Made by a program: the position numbers and the translations under genes. A DNA stretch of 64,000 nt, taken from assembly GCA_024695665.1 (NCBI GenBank), contig JAILHT010000066.1:1-64000 (forward strand), read 5' to 3'. Below, piece after piece: positions 31,908-40,412 of the stretch (within the stretch, counting starts at the first letter, position 1; the number at the start of each line of letters is the position of its first letter). This stretch comes from Lachnospiraceae bacterium (GTDB lineage Bacteria > Bacillota > Clostridia > Lachnospirales > Lachnospiraceae). A model generated the notes under the pieces. The model saw nothing but the letters and a program-made list of their open reading frames with translations. It was not told where the DNA came from and did not search any database.

Positions 31908-34900
31908 TTGCGAAAGCGGATTAGAGAACTCGCACGTGGAAGGATTGGTTACAGAAATTCGTCATTAGTTTTGTCAGAGGACAAAATCAATCTGGAAGTG
32001 CTTGAGGGTGGCACAGTTGCCGGTGAGTTTTCTTTTCACACAGATACGGATGACGTTGTCAGGGGGAATGTATATTCCTCCCTGTCACGTATGGAATGTT
32101 TGACACCTGTATTTGACGGAAGAAAGATTACTGTCCGGTATGAATTCAACAGTTCGGGATTAAATGAGGGTGATGTTCTCAGGGGAGATTTTTTCATAGT
32201 TTCCGATTGCGGGGAATATAACCTTTCTTTTGTTGTGTCCGTTTTGAACCCTTATGCAGACTCCTCGATGGGCAATATTAAAAGTCTTGATGATTTTGTA
32301 AGCCTTTATAAGGATTATCCTAACGAGGCTGAAAAAATCTTCTATTCAACGTATTTTCATCATATTATAACCAACAATTCTCTCTTCCAAAGAAACCTTT
32401 ACGAAGGCTTGAGAAACGGGAGCAGGAGTGTTTTTAATATCGAGGAATTTCTTGTTGAGTGTGGAGTAAAAAAGCGTATTGAACTTGGATGTGCCAAGAA
32501 TGAGTATGAATTTTTCTCAGTCACGGAAAACTGCAGTGATATTATAGAAATCACCAGAAATACATGGGGATTTGTCAATATTGATATCAAATCCGATTCA
32601 CCTTTTATAGAATTTTCAAAAAATCGAATAACCGATTCTGATTTCATAGGTATGACATGTTATATACCTATGGTTATTTGTGCTGATAAGCTTCATGCCG
32701 GAAAGAACTACGGAAAAATAGTTTTGTCTAACGGAATTTGGCAGAGAGAGATTTCCATATGTGCCACACAGAGTAACGGTTTGAATTTCGGCAAACATTC
32801 CGATTCCCATCGCAAAATGATATTTGTTGCTCTTGGAAGACTCTATATGGATTATAGACTGGGGCATATAGTGACCGGCAAATGGTCTGATAAATCCTTA
32901 GATCTGCTGGATGAACTTATAGTGTTGGACGATCAACCGTTCTATAAACTCATGAAGGCGCAGCTTTATCTTGCAAATGGGAGAAAACAGGATGCCGAGT
33001 GGATATTAAATGATTACAGACGTGCATGGGATGGCATAGAAGATGAGGTATATGGATATTATCTGTATGTCAATACTCTCTATAACAAAGAGGATTCTTA
33101 TGTAAACAGACTTATTGATAAGGTTAACGATATTTATATCAGAAACCGTGAGAGCGCACTTTTGTTCTTTTGTATACTGAATCTCAACTCAGAGTATGTA
33201 AAGGACAGACATGCGAGATATCTTGCCATATGTAATTTCGTAGAGAAATACGGGCATTCTTACACATTGGAGACGGAGGCATTAAATATTGTATTATCGG
33301 AGCCTTATTGCGCAGCATCACTCAACCTTTTTGTAAAAAGAATATTGCTCAGGGCGGATCGGTACGGATATCTCGACGAGAAAATATGCCAGAGAATTGT
33401 CCAACTTGCAGACAGAGAGAGCACATATGACCCATGTGTTAGACGTTTGCTTGAGTCATCCGCGAATATATTGGAGGATGAGGAGAGTATAACGGTGCTC
33501 TGCTCGTATCTGGTGAAAAATCATATCTATGATGAAGGTGCTTTTTATGTATATGAAAAAGGCATAAATTCGAATGTCAGAGTTGCCGGAATATATGAGG
33601 CTTATCTTGAGTCTTCCGACAGCAGGAAGGTAAGTCAGCTTCCGCATATAATTCTTATGTATTTTAAAGCACACAGTCATCTGCCTTATCAGCAGAAGGC
33701 ACAACTTTTGGTAAGTATAATAGCAAACAAAGAAAACGATCCTGCCACATATGAGGATTATCATGACCAGATAGTAAAATTTGCATATGAGCAGCTTGAA
33801 CTTTCAAGAGTTGACGATTCGCTTTCCGTTATCTACGGTGATGTTTTTGACAATTATATAAGAATTAGGGAGGTTGCATCACAGCTGGCCTCAGTTTTGT
33901 TTGTGCATAGGGTAACATGTTTTGATCCGAACACGGCATTTGTAGTTGTAAGAGAAAAAGGATTAAAAAATGAGACCAAGGTTCCCGTGAAAAATCATCT
34001 GACATACGTTAATATATATACAAATGACAGACAGATTTTTATGGAGGATATGAACGGCAACAGAAGCGCTGATAAAAATTTGTATCAGCTGGAAATGCTG
34101 ATGCCCGTACATAAATATTTAAAAACCTGTCTCAAGTATGCACCGGAGGAATTTGGTTATCTGCTCAGTTATTTCAAAAACAAGACATCAACCGCAGGAG
34201 CCAATCTCGATGACATTTATATGTTAGAAAGCCTTTTTGAAGACGGCAGAATTAGCGAAGAGTACAGAAATGAGCTGGCTATGAGATATTCACATTTTCT
34301 CGATGACAGAGGAAGAGCTGATATTGTTATCAGGGCGGTGAATTTTGATAAGCTAAGCGATGAGGACAGAATAAGATATATTGAGCTGCTTATTGACAAC
34401 AGCGTGTTGGACTCGGCATACAGATTCATCAGGGATTACAGCATATATACTATAGATGTAAAATATCTGTACAGAGTTGTCTCATATATTATAAGAGAAG
34501 TTGAGTTTGAGGATGACTATGAACTTTTAGATATTTGCATGATTTTATTTGAAAAAGGATGTCAAAAACCGGATCTTTTAATGTATCTTGAGAAACATGC
34601 GCAAGGGTCAAGCAAAAACCTTGAAAAGGTTTTGAGAGTAATACGAAAAGCAGATTTGCCAAGACTTAATCTGACAGAGAGATTGCTCATACAGTCGCTT
34701 TTTTCAACAGAGTATATAAGTATGTCACAGGAGATTTTCGAGGATTATGTGAAGGAGGGGGACCCTGAGGTAATAGATGCATATCTCACGTACCAGAATC
34801 ATATGTCATTCTCCAAGGACGTTGTGGTTTCTGAAAGGTTGTTCCTTTACACGAAGGAAAGAATCTTGATAGATGACAATGTGCCTGCAGTTATGAAGTT

Positions 34901-35435
34901 TTCTTTGGCAAAATATCTTGTCGAAAAAGGAGAATTAAAGCCGGAGGATGAAAAACTTGTCACAGGTTTTATAGCCGAATGGCTGGATCTTGGATTGTAT
35001 TTTAAGTTTTATAAAAAGCTTTCTCATGATATACAGGAAAAATTGCATATATTTGACCAGACGATCATAGAATACAGGACGACGCCGAGAAAACGTGTAA
35101 AAATATATTACAGGCTCAGCGAATCGGATGAGTATATCCGTGAAGATCTGCAGGAAATGTATTATGGTATATATGTAAAGCATACAACATTGTTTTTCGG
35201 AGAGAGCATGCAATACTACATCGTCGAGGAGAACGGCGATAGGGAGGACACTCTCGAAAGCGGAAAATTGGACAATCTCGGAATAAGTGGAAACAATGCT
35301 TCATCTAGATATGATTATCTAAATGAATTGTTGATGGCTTATTATCTGGGGGAGACGGATGCTCTTGATAAGATGATAAAAGAGTATGTGAAAAAGACGA
35401 AAGAAGTACAATCATTATTTGAACTGATGGGATGA
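31908..35435 (+). CDS. Large DUF5717 family protein (Ig-like and alpha-solenoid)
   Basis: A 1175-aa protein without signal peptide or membrane helix. Residues about 1-120 look like a beta-sandwich (SLVLSEDKINLEVLEGG to NLSFVVSV), residues about 190-310 like a second one, and the centre (about 310-1080) is almost wholly helical with TPR-like or solenoid texture. A beta-rich segment lies near the C-terminus. I recognise it as DUF5717, a Lachnospiraceae-type family of unknown function. The start is a TTG at 31908, supported by the family's usual MRKRI-x-x-L-A-x-G N-terminus; AGAGG lies 11 bases upstream. It is followed after six bases by its usual DUF5716 partner. Confidence 0.75.
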   Translation: MRKRIRELARGRIGYRNSSLVLSEDKINLEVLEGGTVAGEFSFHTDTDDVVRGNVYSSLSRMECLTPVFDGRKITVRYEFNSSGLNEGDVLRGDFFIVSDCGEYNLSFVVSVLNPYADSSMGNIKSLDDFVSLYKDYPNEAEKIFYSTYFHHIITNNSLFQRNLYEGLRNGSRSVFNIEEFLVECGVKKRIELGCAKNEYEFFSVTENCSDIIEITRNTWGFVNIDIKSDSPFIEFSKNRITDSDFIGMTCYIPMVICADKLHAGKNYGKIVLSNGIWQREISICATQSNGLNFGKHSDSHRKMIFVALGRLYMDYRLGHIVTGKWSDKSLDLLDELIVLDDQPFYKLMKAQLYLANGRKQDAEWILNDYRRAWDGIEDEVYGYYLYVNTLYNKEDSYVNRLIDKVNDIYIRNRESALLFFCILNLNSEYVKDRHARYLAICNFVEKYGHSYTLETEALNIVLSEPYCAASLNLFVKRILLRADRYGYLDEKICQRIVQLADRESTYDPCVRRLLESSANILEDEESITVLCSYLVKNHIYDEGAFYVYEKGINSNVRVAGIYEAYLESSDSRKVSQLPHIILMYFKAHSHLPYQQKAQLLVSIIANKENDPATYEDYHDQIVKFAYEQLELSRVDDSLSVIYGDVFDNYIRIREVASQLASVLFVHRVTCFDPNTAFVVVREKGLKNETKVPVKNHLTYVNIYTNDRQIFMEDMNGNRSADKNLYQLEMLMPVHKYLKTCLKYAPEEFGYLLSYFKNKTSTAGANLDDIYMLESLFEDGRISEEYRNELAMRYSHFLDDRGRADIVIRAVNFDKLSDEDRIRYIELLIDNSVLDSAYRFIRDYSIYTIDVKYLYRVVSYIIREVEFEDDYELLDICMILFEKGCQKPDLLMYLEKHAQGSSKNLEKVLRVIRKADLPRLNLTERLLIQSLFSTEYISMSQEIFEDYVKEGDPEVIDAYLTYQNHMSFSKDVVVSERLFLYTKERILIDDNVPAVMKFSLAKYLVEKGELKPEDEKLVTGFIAEWLDLGLYFKFYKKLSHDIQEKLHIFDQTIIEYRTTPRKRVKIYYRLSESDEYIREDLQEMYYGIYVKHTTLFFGESMQYYIVEENGDREDTLESGKLDNLGISGNNASSRYDYLNELLMAYYLGETDALDKMIKEYVKKTKEVQSLFELMG

Positions 35436-35441
35436 TGGCAT

Positions 35442-36653
35442 ATGGATTACAGTTGTATCGGTATAGACTTTGAAGGGAATATGGCCCTCGTGTCTTATGT
35501 GAATAAAAATGATTATGAACCGACCACGGTCAGCACTGTTGTTGGCGGTGACGATTATCAGATACCGGTCTGCGTTGTCAAGAAAAAAGGTATAGGGCAG
35601 TGGCTGTATGGAAAGGATGCCGTCTCATATGCCAAAGCCAACAAAATAAAATGTGAGAGCAATCTCTTGGAGAGAGCTGAAAATCAGGAAACAGTTATAA
35701 TAGAAGGGACGGAGTATGCTCTTCAGGATTTGTTTTTCTTCTTTTTAAAGAAACTTATGGCACTTCCTTCAAAAATGGGAGCGGTAGGAAACTTTGACCG
35801 CATTGCCATAACAATAGAAAATGTGACTCTTAAAAATATGCAGTTGTTTTGGATCTGTATGGAAAAACTAAAGTTTCCTTTAAACAATCTTTCGGTTATG
35901 GACCACAGGGAGAGTTTTTGCCATTATGTTATGCATCAGGAAGAGGATCTGAAAAGACATCTCGCAGCAATGTTTGAGTTTTGCGGAGACAAACTTACAC
36001 TAAGACTTTTGACAAAGAACATTAAACAAAAACCTGTTACCGTCTCTGTCATGGAGGAATCCTTGATGTATGACAATATGGATAAAGACAGCTTTTTGTT
36101 GGGAATAGCAAAGGAGAATTTTACCGGGAAAATGATATCTTCGGTATATCTTACCGGTGATGGTTTTGACGGTGACTGGATGAAACAGTCCTTAAAATAT
36201 CTTTGCTCCGGAAGAAGAGTTTTTTTGGGGAAAAATCTTTACAGTAAGGGCTGCTGTTATGCTGCTGATCTGAATAATGATTATGTTTACCTCGGAGAGA
36301 ATGAACTCAAAAATAATGTGAGTCTGAAAGTGACTGAACATGGTTTATACAAATTCATTCCGCTTGCAGAAGCCGGAAAAAACTGGTATGATCAGCAATT
36401 TGATTATGATATCTATGTAAAAGGTGAACCGGAGATAGACCTTTGGGTTCAGGAGACAAATGGAAATAAACCAAAGATCTTAACATTTGTACTTAAGGAC
36501 TGGCCTAAGAGAAAATGTGATATCACGAGAGTGAGAGTTTCATCAAAGCCATTGTCACCGAAGGAGATAAAAATTTCAGTAAAAGATCTTGGATTTGGAG
36601 AGATTTCCCAATCCACAAATGCATTTAGCGAATATACGTTAAAATTGGAGTAG
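35442..36653 (+). CDS. DUF5716 family, divergent Hsp70/actin-fold protein
   Basis: A 403-aa protein recognised as DUF5716. It looks like a diverged Hsp70/actin-type nucleotide-binding fold: GIDFEGNMALVSYV at the start resembles phosphate loop 1, IPVCVVKKKGIGQWLYGKDAV resembles the Hsp70 segment that follows, FDRIAITIENVTLKNMQ resembles the VPA-x-F region, and SVYLTGDGFDGDW resembles the adenosine loop. The second phosphate loop (DLGGGT in DnaK) reads EFCGDKLT and is not conserved, so ATP hydrolysis is doubtful. The last 90 residues are a separate beta-rich tail. It sits between the DUF5717 giant and a TPR protein, six and three bases apart. Confidence 0.65.
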   Translation: MDYSCIGIDFEGNMALVSYVNKNDYEPTTVSTVVGGDDYQIPVCVVKKKGIGQWLYGKDAVSYAKANKIKCESNLLERAENQETVIIEGTEYALQDLFFFFLKKLMALPSKMGAVGNFDRIAITIENVTLKNMQLFWICMEKLKFPLNNLSVMDHRESFCHYVMHQEEDLKRHLAAMFEFCGDKLTLRLLTKNIKQKPVTVSVMEESLMYDNMDKDSFLLGIAKENFTGKMISSVYLTGDGFDGDWMKQSLKYLCSGRRVFLGKNLYSKGCCYAADLNNDYVYLGENELKNNVSLKVTEHGLYKFIPLAEAGKNWYDQQFDYDIYVKGEPEIDLWVQETNGNKPKILTFVLKDWPKRKCDITRVRVSSKPLSPKEIKISVKDLGFGEISQSTNAFSEYTLKLE

Positions 36654-36656
36654 CTT

Positions 36657-37397
36657 ATGAGTGAATTGTATCTTTGTACGGGAGAGATATCTGCTATGCC
36701 ATATTATCTGGATGTTGCAGGGCTTAATATCTATTCCCTCGAAGAGATGAGTTTTTTTCTAAAAGAGAATATAGAACTTATAGATGAATCATTCATGAGC
36801 GAGGAACTTGTCGAATGGATCTCGAAAGAAATCGGAAATAATATTCTTGCCAAAAAAGAGACCGGTGCAATTGAGAATAATAGGTTTTATGAATTTGTTG
36901 AAAATATTCTTTTTGCCGGAAATATTTTGAGCAAAGAAGAAATAAATGAATGCATGAGTCTGATGAAGCAGTATCAGAACAGAGATTCCTTTGAGAGAAG
37001 AAAGTATAAAGCGGACGGCTATGTGAAAAAGGAATTGTATCCTGCTGCAATAAGAGAGTATGAAAAGCTTCTTGAGGAAAATGGGATAAGGAAGCACAAA
37101 AAAGAGTTTTTAAGCGAGATATACAACAATCTGGGTTGCGCCTATGCCGGGATGTTTCAATTTAAAGCTGCTTATGAGTATTTTTTGAAGGCTTATGAAC
37201 TCGGTGGAAATGAGAAAATGAGGCTGCACGCACTGCGTAGCAAATCTTTCTTTGATGCTGAGACCGAACTTGATTTGAAAGGCAGAGAGATATCGAAAAG
37301 CTATGAGAATAAAGCCTGCGATATCATTGGCGAGTACAATGACAAAACGGAACTGATAAGTGAACTGAAGGAAGATTATAGAAAACTATTGGGATAG
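36657..37397 (+). CDS. TPR-containing protein of DUF5717 cluster
   Basis: A 246-aa soluble protein. The first 110 residues are helical and unrecognised. At about 120-195 there are tetratricopeptide-like helices (AAIREYEKLLEENG and EIYNNLGCAYAGMFQFKAAY, then FLKAYELGG). TPR proteins bind peptide tails and often serve as adaptors of chaperones; here the neighbour is an Hsp70-like protein, so an adaptor role is plausible but inferred. The start is three bases after the DUF5716 stop and the ribosome binding site (TTGGAG) lies within that gene. Confidence 0.65.
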   Translation: MSELYLCTGEISAMPYYLDVAGLNIYSLEEMSFFLKENIELIDESFMSEELVEWISKEIGNNILAKKETGAIENNRFYEFVENILFAGNILSKEEINECMSLMKQYQNRDSFERRKYKADGYVKKELYPAAIREYEKLLEENGIRKHKKEFLSEIYNNLGCAYAGMFQFKAAYEYFLKAYELGGNEKMRLHALRSKSFFDAETELDLKGREISKSYENKACDIIGEYNDKTELISELKEDYRKLLG

Positions 37398-37413
37398 TTT
37401 GAAAGGAAGGCAT

Positions 37414-38586
37414 ATGTTTTTCTTTAGAAGAAAAAAGAAACAACCTACAATCGATCTTGATGAGGAAATCGATTCCCTCTATCTTTCTCCCGAGGACAGA
37501 AATGATCCGCATAAGGTTCAGCATTACGTCTTTCAGAGATGTGAGCAGATACTTGAGGCAAACAAGGAGATGGAGCAGGAACTCAGTGAATACAGACTTG
37601 TCACGCAATATATTAATGACATCTCAGTCCTTGACGAATTGCCTAAAAGTGACAAGAAAGCCATTGCACATCTTGCGGACGGAATAGTAAGCCTAGAGAA
37701 ATCAAGGGCCGATATGGTCAGAAAATCAAAGGTCAACATCGATGAGGCCACCTACAAGATAATGCAGATAAATGAGGAGGACATCCCGGATGCAATAAGA
37801 AGACTACGGGAGAACGAGACTTGGGAGAATACGGTCAAGAGAGATATGCAGTATCTCGAGGCGGAGAAGACCAGATGGAATTATCTTAAGAGTTCTCTGG
37901 AAAGACAGCAGACAATTCTGAAATATGCCAGTTATATTCTTATTGGTCTTTTTGCTGTTGCCCTCATATTTTTGAGCTTTGTACAATTTGCACTGGAGAT
38001 AGATATGTCTCTTGCTTGGATGATTGTAACATTTATTTTTTGTCTTGCAGGGGTACTTATATTTGTCAGGATGCAAAACAATTCAACGGAGATTGTTCAG
38101 GCGCATGTGAATGCAAATTATGCCATAACGCTCAACAATAAGCTCACTTTTAAATATGTGAATGTCAAAAATGCCGTAGATTATTCCTGCGAGAAGTTTA
38201 AGGTTCACAATTCTTATGAGTTGAATTATATGTGGGAGCAGTATCTTCTTGCTACTAAAGAGAGAAATAAGTTGTCGGATATGGACTTTGATATGGAATA
38301 TTATGCCGGAAGGCTGGTAAAAGAACTCAAAAAGCATAATATACATGACCCTCAGATATGGGTGCATCAGGCGGAGGCACTGGTTAACAAGAAAGAGATG
38401 GTTGAGGTAAAACATAACTGGATACTGAGGAGACAAAAATTAAGAGAGAGAGTAGCTTACAACAAAGATAATATAAATAAGCAGAGAGCAGAGATAGATG
38501 AGCTTCTGCAGGATGAAGAGACTGCGACAGATGAACTCAGATCAATTGTTGAGTCTTTGGATAAACTGGAAATTGCGAGGGATTAG
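37414..38586 (+). CDS. Membrane-anchored coiled-coil protein of DUF5717 cluster
   Basis: A 390-aa protein. An N-terminal basic FFFRRKKK is followed by a long charged helical region (about 20-165) with coiled-coil character, two adjacent membrane helices (about 168-192 and 198-220), and a second charged helical region to the C-terminus. Both coiled-coil regions should lie on the same side, in the cytoplasm. I do not recognise the family. I start at the ATG at 37414, which has AAAGGAAGG just upstream; a TTG at 37399 is also in frame. It may anchor the other three products to the membrane (inference). Confidence 0.65.
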   Translation: MFFFRRKKKQPTIDLDEEIDSLYLSPEDRNDPHKVQHYVFQRCEQILEANKEMEQELSEYRLVTQYINDISVLDELPKSDKKAIAHLADGIVSLEKSRADMVRKSKVNIDEATYKIMQINEEDIPDAIRRLRENETWENTVKRDMQYLEAEKTRWNYLKSSLERQQTILKYASYILIGLFAVALIFLSFVQFALEIDMSLAWMIVTFIFCLAGVLIFVRMQNNSTEIVQAHVNANYAITLNNKLTFKYVNVKNAVDYSCEKFKVHNSYELNYMWEQYLLATKERNKLSDMDFDMEYYAGRLVKELKKHNIHDPQIWVHQAEALVNKKEMVEVKHNWILRRQKLRERVAYNKDNINKQRAEIDELLQDEETATDELRSIVESLDKLEIARD

Positions 38587-38588
38587 GA

Positions 38589-40412
38589 TTGAATATACCG
38601 GATAAATCTCAGCTTAAGGCTATAAGGCATGGGGAAGGCCCCATGCTTGTTCTTGCCGGACCGGGAAGCGGGAAGACTTTCGTGGTCACAAAAAGAGTTG
38701 AGAATCTGATAAATGAATACAAAGTTTCACCCGGGAAAATACTTGTAATCACATTCACACGTACTGCTGCGGGTGAGATGAGAGATCGTTTTCTCACTAT
38801 GAATCCTGACTGTAGAGGAGTTACCTTTGGTACTTTTCATGCAGTTTTTTTTATGATACTCAAAAACGCATACGGATATACAGCTGAGAATATCATTCGT
38901 GAAGATGAAAGATTTTTTATCATGAAAAATCTTATAAGACAGCTTAAATTGGAATATGAAGATGAGAATGATTTTATCGGAAACATTTTTTCCGAGATTT
39001 CTTTGATCAAAAATACAGGGATTGAACTGTCAAATTATTATTCGACAAGTTGCGGTACGGATGAGTTCAGAAGGCTTTATGTAGGTTATGACAAGGCTCT
39101 CAGACGTACAAACAAGATTGACTTTGACGATATGCTGACTTTTACATATGAGCTTTTTGATATGCGAAAGGATATATTGGCAATGTGGCAGAGAAAGTTT
39201 GAGTATATTCTTATAGATGAATTTCAGGATGTGAACAAGGTTCAATATGATATTGCACTGATGCTCGCAGGAAAACGCGCGAATCTTTTTATGGTCGGCG
39301 ATGACGATCAGTCAATATACAGATTCAGGGGCGCAGATCCTAAAATCATGCTCAATATAAAAGATGATTTCAAAAACTTGAAAACAGTGAATCTCTCTGT
39401 GAATTACAGATGCCCGGAGAATATTACAGATGTGGCAATGCAGCTTATATCCCAAAACAGTGCCAGATATGAAAAGGATATTATATCCCGGAATCAGGGG
39501 GGAAGGGTTGTACGTAGATTATTTGAGGATCAGTGGAAAGAGAGCGATTTTATAATCAAAAAGTTGAGAGAGTATGAAGATGACGGGATTGATTTGAATA
39601 ATGTTGCCGTGCTTTTCAGGGTCAATACAGGATGCAGACTTATAGCAGAGAAGTTTACAGAATATAATATAACCTTTCAGATGAGGGACAGTTTTCCTTC
39701 AATATACGATCATTGGATGGCAAAAGACATTTTTGCTTACATGGATATTGCTCACGGTTCGAGAAAACGGGAAGATTTTTTGCTTATAATAAACAGACCT
39801 AAGAGATATATTTCGAGGGAGAGCCTTGAGTATTCCGAGGTTGCTTTTGATGTATGGCAGGCTTTCTACAGCGAGCAACCGTGGATAGAAAAGAGGATAG
39901 AAGATTTACAAAAAGACTTAAAATTCATAAAAAAACTCAGTCCTTTTGCGGCTGTAAATTATATAAGAAAATCTGTCGGTTATGATGAATTTATCAAGGA
40001 GTATGCAACGTTCAGACATATAAACAAGGATGAGCTGTTTGATACTCTTGATGAACTTACGGAGAGTGCGAAACCTTTTGATACTTATGAGAAATGGCTT
40101 GAACATATCGTTGAATTCAAAGATATTCAGAAAAAAAATAAAGAGATGAACCCAAACACCGATGGGGTTTCTCTTTTGACTTTTCACTCTGCGAAAGGAC
40201 TTGAGTTTGAAAAGGTGTTCATCATAGATATGAATGAGGATGTGATTCCTTACAAAAAAGCCGTTCTCCCCGAAGATATTGAGGAGGAACGGCGTATGTT
40301 GTATGTTGGTATGACACGAGCAATATCGGAACTTTACCTTCTCTCTGCAAAAAAAATACATGGAAAAGAAGCCGATGACTCGCAGTTCCTTTATGAAATG
40401 GATATGGCGTAA
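38589..40412 (+). CDS. UvrD/Rep-family ATP-dependent DNA helicase
   Basis: A 607-aa superfamily 1A helicase with all main motifs: Q-motif and Walker A (AGPGSGKT near residue 25), motif II LIDEFQDVN, motif III GDDDQSIYRFRGA, motif IV VNYRCPENI, motif V LTFHSAKGLEF and motif VI RRMLYVGMTRA. It is shorter than PcrA/UvrD and lacks the C-terminal Tudor-like tail. The start is a TTG at 38589 with GAGGG seven bases upstream, two bases after the previous stop. It closes the long co-directional run; whether it is functionally tied to the DUF5717 set is unclear. Confidence 0.88.
   Translation: MNIPDKSQLKAIRHGEGPMLVLAGPGSGKTFVVTKRVENLINEYKVSPGKILVITFTRTAAGEMRDRFLTMNPDCRGVTFGTFHAVFFMILKNAYGYTAENIIREDERFFIMKNLIRQLKLEYEDENDFIGNIFSEISLIKNTGIELSNYYSTSCGTDEFRRLYVGYDKALRRTNKIDFDDMLTFTYELFDMRKDILAMWQRKFEYILIDEFQDVNKVQYDIALMLAGKRANLFMVGDDDQSIYRFRGADPKIMLNIKDDFKNLKTVNLSVNYRCPENITDVAMQLISQNSARYEKDIISRNQGGRVVRRLFEDQWKESDFIIKKLREYEDDGIDLNNVAVLFRVNTGCRLIAEKFTEYNITFQMRDSFPSIYDHWMAKDIFAYMDIAHGSRKREDFLLIINRPKRYISRESLEYSEVAFDVWQAFYSEQPWIEKRIEDLQKDLKFIKKLSPFAAVNYIRKSVGYDEFIKEYATFRHINKDELFDTLDELTESAKPFDTYEKWLEHIVEFKDIQKKNKEMNPNTDGVSLLTFHSAKGLEFEKVFIIDMNEDVIPYKKAVLPEDIEEERRMLYVGMTRAISELYLLSAKKIHGKEADDSQFLYEMDMA

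Follow-up and report, generated by a model that had tools for sequence, protein, structure and literature searches.

A conserved gene trio of the Lachnospiraceae built around DUF5716, a predicted pseudo-Hsp70, may encode a client-binding scaffold

Ssz1 of the eukaryotic RAC is a lidless, non-hydrolysing Hsp70 whose SBD-beta is completed by its partner Zuo1 (PMC7083937). A related layout is predicted for DUF5716, the product of the second of four adjacent genes in the 64,000-nucleotide stretch of Lachnospiraceae DNA analysed here (the window). Lachnospiraceae rank with the most common bacteria of the human gut, and to our knowledge the core genes of this family that lack a known function have hardly been tested. 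Pfam gives no function for the DUF5717 or DUF5716 families, as a first reading made from the letters alone (the sequence-only reading) had stated. No paper naming DUF5717 was found in the literature searched, and the single DUF5716 paper has, judging from title and abstract, no bearing on the set. The favoured explanation, held at a rough probability of 0.45, is that the set encodes an obligate, family-private, ATP-independent cytosolic scaffold that binds clients around a dead Hsp70 and is sometimes anchored at the membrane.

The four genes share one strand (Table 1), and the close spacing described in the sequence-only reading was confirmed, with gaps of 6, 3 and 1 bases. The last gap widens to 16 bases if gene 4 begins at the ATG listed in the table, which lies behind AGGAAGG and is more likely to be the start than 37399. 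The end of gltA lies 25 bases upstream of the set and a UvrD-like helicase gene (38589-40412) starts 2 bases behind it, and transcription here may extend beyond the set. Neither adjacency is conserved in any of the first 20 relatives examined. The helicase matches the PADLOC GajB models, which are general UvrD helicases; the four set genes match no PADLOC model. The core of the set is the trio DUF5717-DUF5716-TPR, and the membrane coiled-coil gene is accessory.

Table 1. Genes of the set (window positions) and predicted regions of DUF5717 (residues).
Feature	Position	Strand	Description and evidence
Gene 1, DUF5717, putative giant scaffold	31908..35435	+	1175 aa, TTG start; Pfam, AF2 model, fold comparison
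Gene 2, DUF5716, predicted pseudo-Hsp70	35442..36653	+	403 aa; AF2, DnaK fold match, hhalign, motif table
Gene 3, putative TPR adaptor	36657..37397	+	246 aa; sub-cut-off TPR, natural fusion to DUF5716 in L111
Gene 4, putative accessory membrane protein	37399..38586	+	395 aa ORF; likely start ATG 37414
DUF5717 Ig domains, PapD/MSP/ASH-type	residues about 18-115 and 192-291		fold comparison of AF2 model
DUF5717 helical solenoid, roughly 750 residues	residues 296-1045		AF2 model
DUF5717 beta insert inside solenoid	residues 666-730		AF2 model
DUF5717 C-terminal beta domain, then two helices	residues 1052-1122		AF2 model

The product of gene 2 belongs to DUF5716_C (PF18980), which spans its residues 121-402 with an E-value of 3e-87 and 293 bits against a cut-off of 34.7. 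Its AF2 single-chain model (mean pLDDT 89, pTM 0.81) has an ASKHA-fold NBD followed by an SBD-beta, which is the layout of an Hsp70, and the leading PDB matches of the model are Hsp70s (Foldseek 1e-19). Fold comparison with DnaK (7kru) gave a Z of 21.5 over 375 residues at an rmsd of 6.2, and Ssz1 and Hsp110 reached a Z of about 20. Profile searches agree, with an E of 0.0013 for PDB DnaK and an hhalign probability of 97.7% (E 2e-12) for the DnaK of the same genome. The diverged Hsp70-type fold that had been proposed from the sequence is therefore upheld.

New over that proposal is the assignment, from motifs and model, of DUF5716 as a predicted pseudo-Hsp70. Among 134 sequences neither the phosphate-1 Thr pair (GTTN) nor the phosphate-2 GGGT (DLGGGT) is conserved, the columns being variable in both cases. 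The position of DnaK subdomain IIB holds just 16-33 residues in all 134 and is compact in the AF2 model. The SBD-alpha lid is absent from alignment and model alike, the chain stopping after the SBD-beta strands, and Pfam HSP70 (PF00012) was not among the matches listed at E up to 1. With the phosphate motifs, IIB and the lid missing, DUF5716 fails the defining catalytic features of an Hsp70, and the protein appears to be Hsp70-derived with its ATPase activity presumably lost. An intact DnaK is encoded separately in the same genome, on another contig. The best conserved stretch of DUF5716 is a reworked adenosine-side motif, GxGF..W..SL..LC..RRVF.G.NL..KGAC. This conservation could speak for a nucleotide-sensing Hsp70 variant, in which the motif still binds a nucleotide or other ligand and so switches the complex, but the loss of the very elements that clamp the nucleotide (phosphate-1, phosphate-2 and IIB) makes such a sensor improbable.

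DUF5717_N (PF18984) and DUF5717 (PF18983) together span residues 1-1171 of gene 1, with E-values of 3e-228 and 3e-73 and scores of 760 and 247 bits against cut-offs of 25, which places the protein in the family. An AF2 single-chain model (mean pLDDT 86) and fold comparison both bear out the Ig-like and alpha-solenoid make-up read from the sequence, and at a pTM of 0.54 the arrangement of the domains is uncertain. The Ig domains resemble PapD, FimC, HYDIN, SCS2 and OCRL (Z 10-11, rmsd about 2, ~93 residues) and have no sequence match in the PDB. The solenoid has a weak, generic fold likeness to Ski3, Ctr9 and IFT-A (Z about 8); the VIA-align rows for this model fall mostly on the N-terminal 290 residues and barely cover the solenoid and C-terminal domain. 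An export signal was not seen in DUF5717.

These folds bring a purely architectural complex into consideration, in which the pseudo-Hsp70 would be a rigid, clientless brick and the Ig domains and solenoid would form a cell-shape, division-site or envelope scaffold. The DUF5717 Ig domains match ASH/PapD-type domains of the cilia central apparatus, CEP192 and HYDIN, and the C1 central pair PDB entries matched by DUF5716 contain an Hsp70-like chain. However, the SBD-beta is kept in all DUF5716 relatives aligned, and genes for division or the cell wall are not found repeatedly close to the set. An architectural role is thus possible but doubtful.

The third member of the trio is recognised mainly through its relatives. 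The window copy has a TPR match under the Pfam cut-off, while in 14 of 20 relatives TPR_12 scores an E of 0.01 or better (8e-9 at best) and the gene 3 profile matches designed TPRs. Its N-terminal domain of about 110 residues (window 36657-36986) matched no Pfam family and is conserved, with C7, P15, E30, L31, N38, L51 and E58 near-invariant. At one locus (L111, UBA1251) DUF5716 and the TPR protein form a single in-frame ORF of 689 aa with no ambiguous bases. This natural fusion argues for contact between the two proteins.

Gene 4 matches no Pfam family above cut-off. Its product has two adjacent hydrophobic TM helices (about residues 174-230), which are seen in relatives as well, and its arms are charged, poor in Gly and Pro, and probably helical and cytoplasmic; they may form coiled coil. 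The gene is present in 111 of 250 genera (about 44%) and adjoins DUF5716 in 65 of the 65 cases with both listed. Mapping its presence on the DUF5716 tree requires nine changes, five of them forced by starred branches; it is possibly ancestral and was then lost repeatedly. An anchor gene in 44% of genera would suit an architectural complex, but its absence from the other 56% weighs against one. The same count shows that membrane tethering, which the sequence-only reading had suggested for the four-gene set, is not the general mechanism. The trio as one functional unit survives from that proposal, and the constancy of the fourth gene does not.

A survey of 250 Lachnospiraceae genera with Pfam profiles, using one genome per genus, found DUF5717 and DUF5716 each in 244 (98%), nearly always in single copy. 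The family is taken to be Lachnospiraceae on the strength of its named relatives, which include Blautia, Kineothrix, Anaerocolumna, Eisenbergiella, Lactonifactor and 'Lachnospiraceae bacterium'. In all seven genomes without DUF5717, DUF5716 or both, the adaptor N-terminal domain is missing too; three of the seven are <70% complete. In a phylum-wide sample the above-cut-off matches came from four family genomes and from none of ~295 outside the family, and in a class-wide sample from nine of nine family members and none of 236 others. Across the two samples, about 530 genomes outside the family thus gave no DUF5717 or DUF5716 match above cut-off; a weak DUF5717 match in one of them (G027, E 6.5e-4) fell below it. 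With nearly all genera carrying it and no sampled outsider, this is seemingly one of the gene sets that the family shares and keeps private.

Such a distribution is hard to reconcile with a phage-defence or mobile-element system, which has nothing in its favour beyond fast divergence. No match to the set was found in plasmid sequences and no confirmed one in viral contigs, and together with the lack of a PADLOC match, the near-universal single copies and the intercorrelated identities of the trio this makes such a system very unlikely, in line with the first reading of the locus. Four records labelled as phage match the set, and the two that were inspected are both chromosomal in look. L199 (MT835486.1) and L200 (MT835988.1) come from human faeces, are labelled 'Bacteriophage sp.' as unverified records, and carry the set, in L199 beside valS (valyl-tRNA synthetase) and in L200 between the same flanking genes as in locus L164. 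They look like fragments of bacterial chromosome filed as phage.

Order and strand of DUF5717-DUF5716-TPR are kept in 133 of 138 loci, comprising 84 without the coiled-coil gene, 48 with it and 1 with the fusion. Median gaps across loci are 15, 12 and 14 bases. The same arrangement and similarly short gaps reappear in relatives with 25-30% identity, which is far beyond chance. Homologues commonly lying apart had been named beforehand as an outcome that would count against a complex, and this is not what is seen: match tables, which share many genomes with the 138-locus count, place DUF5717 and DUF5716 side by side in 114 of 116 cases, and one exception (G307) is a contig break. In G337 and in a Blautia locus (L088, G780), both from draft or MAG assemblies, DUF5717 lies elsewhere amid unrelated genes and all parts of the trio are kept. 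The window genes sit in a dense same-strand run, as might be expected if their products were functionally separate housekeeping proteins with nothing in common but an operon. This explanation is disfavoured, and quite improbable, given the near-perfect co-occurrence, the joint absence, the persistence when split and the natural fusion. The trio probably works as one complex, a view well supported by the genomics.

Chaperone genes adjoin the set at a few loci. In L157 (1399-4620), from a genome (G466) whose DUF5716 is among those nearer to the window's copy in the tree of that protein, intact dnaK and dnaJ lie directly upstream, 143 bases before DUF5717. In L063 (11346-13415) htpG directly precedes the set in the same orientation; 12 further loci carry full-length htpG upstream at a distance of a few genes, and L118 has a partial htpG. 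Behind the TPR gene of L102 (12069-20940) are three short Hsp70 homologues and a 442-aa protein without a Pfam family, and the cluster continues with another Hsp70-like protein, the fourth, and one protein of 342 aa. The neighbours in L157, L063 and L102 hint at proteostasis, but they are rare and could be due to chance. The L102 cluster was rejected as a part of the system because it is lineage-specific, its 442-aa marker occurring in just 2 of 200 genera, once as a weak match.

Other neighbours were likewise set aside. Genes for purB, purC, purF, metNIQ-type proteins and valS recur downstream at variable distance and are not in the window; a link to purines or methionine transport was rejected, and the recurrence is read as old synteny. 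An upstream aminotransferase was dismissed as a partner since it lies on the opposite strand and is found in about a third of loci.

Median identity across loci is 29-32% for the trio (32% for DUF5716) versus 86% for PurB at the same loci, with purB as the only yardstick. Between close relatives dN/dS is 0.02-0.18, with dS often near saturation, which places the trio proteins under purifying selection. Pairwise identities of the trio members follow one another closely (r 0.90-0.95) and those of PurB less so (0.55-0.61). The three genes thus seem to be inherited together and to evolve at a common pace, which is not proof of contact. For purF the correlations lie close to zero, which is probably due to paralogues mixed into the purF set. 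Fast divergence under purifying selection is a point in favour of the architectural complex. A structural adaptor would account for the fast divergence no less than a chaperone would, which counts against the client-binding scaffold.

For the client-binding scaffold, of which the structural models are two single chains (DUF5716 and DUF5717), a division of labour can be proposed. DUF5717 would be the long scaffold, its two Ig domains and solenoid serving as docking surfaces. DUF5716 would no longer cycle with ATP and may instead be a constitutive, fast-exchange module for peptide binding and docking, its lidless SBD-beta perhaps completed by a partner in analogy to Ssz1. The TPR protein might bind DUF5716 directly and link it to scaffold or client, and in about 44% of genera the two-TM coiled-coil protein could tether the complex to the membrane. 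The complex would most likely hold client polypeptides or hand them over for the ordinary DnaK and HtpG machines, as a holdase or in assembly. A bolder version, a tentative one that we consider unlikely, is a family-wide quality or assembly machine with an ATP-dead Hsp70 and no J-protein or exchange factor, an independent analogue of RAC-type systems that had a single origin at the family root and is nearly indispensable. A universal, fast-evolving and apparently non-enzymatic complex centred on a dead Hsp70 would put the Hsp70 fold to a use that is new in bacteria. The set could also serve as a marker of the family and as a target for genetics in Lachnospiraceae.

Parts of the set resemble known systems and also depart from them. 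DUF5717 has a long helical solenoid like Ski3, Ctr9 and IFT-A, a likeness at the level of helical repeats that does not imply membership. Both its Ig domains have the PapD-like/MSP/ASH fold of PapD, FimC, SCS2, OCRL and HYDIN, but unlike in PapD-like proteins they are fused to the solenoid, with no export signal seen. DUF5716 shares the ASKHA NBD fold and SBD-beta with DnaK and canonical Hsp70s, whereas it lacks their lid, IIB, phosphate-1 TT, phosphate-2 GGGT and match to PF00012. Pfam finds no DnaJ domain in the four set proteins, and thus no RAC-type, Zuo1-like J-domain partner. Ssz1 itself, the nearest parallel in concept, differs in its full NBD and ATP binding, DUF5716 being without subdomain IIB and the phosphate motifs. 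Like DUF5716, however, Ssz1 joins an Hsp70 NBD to a lidless SBD-beta; it is not an ATPase and works with an obligate partner, both of which are probable for DUF5716 as well.
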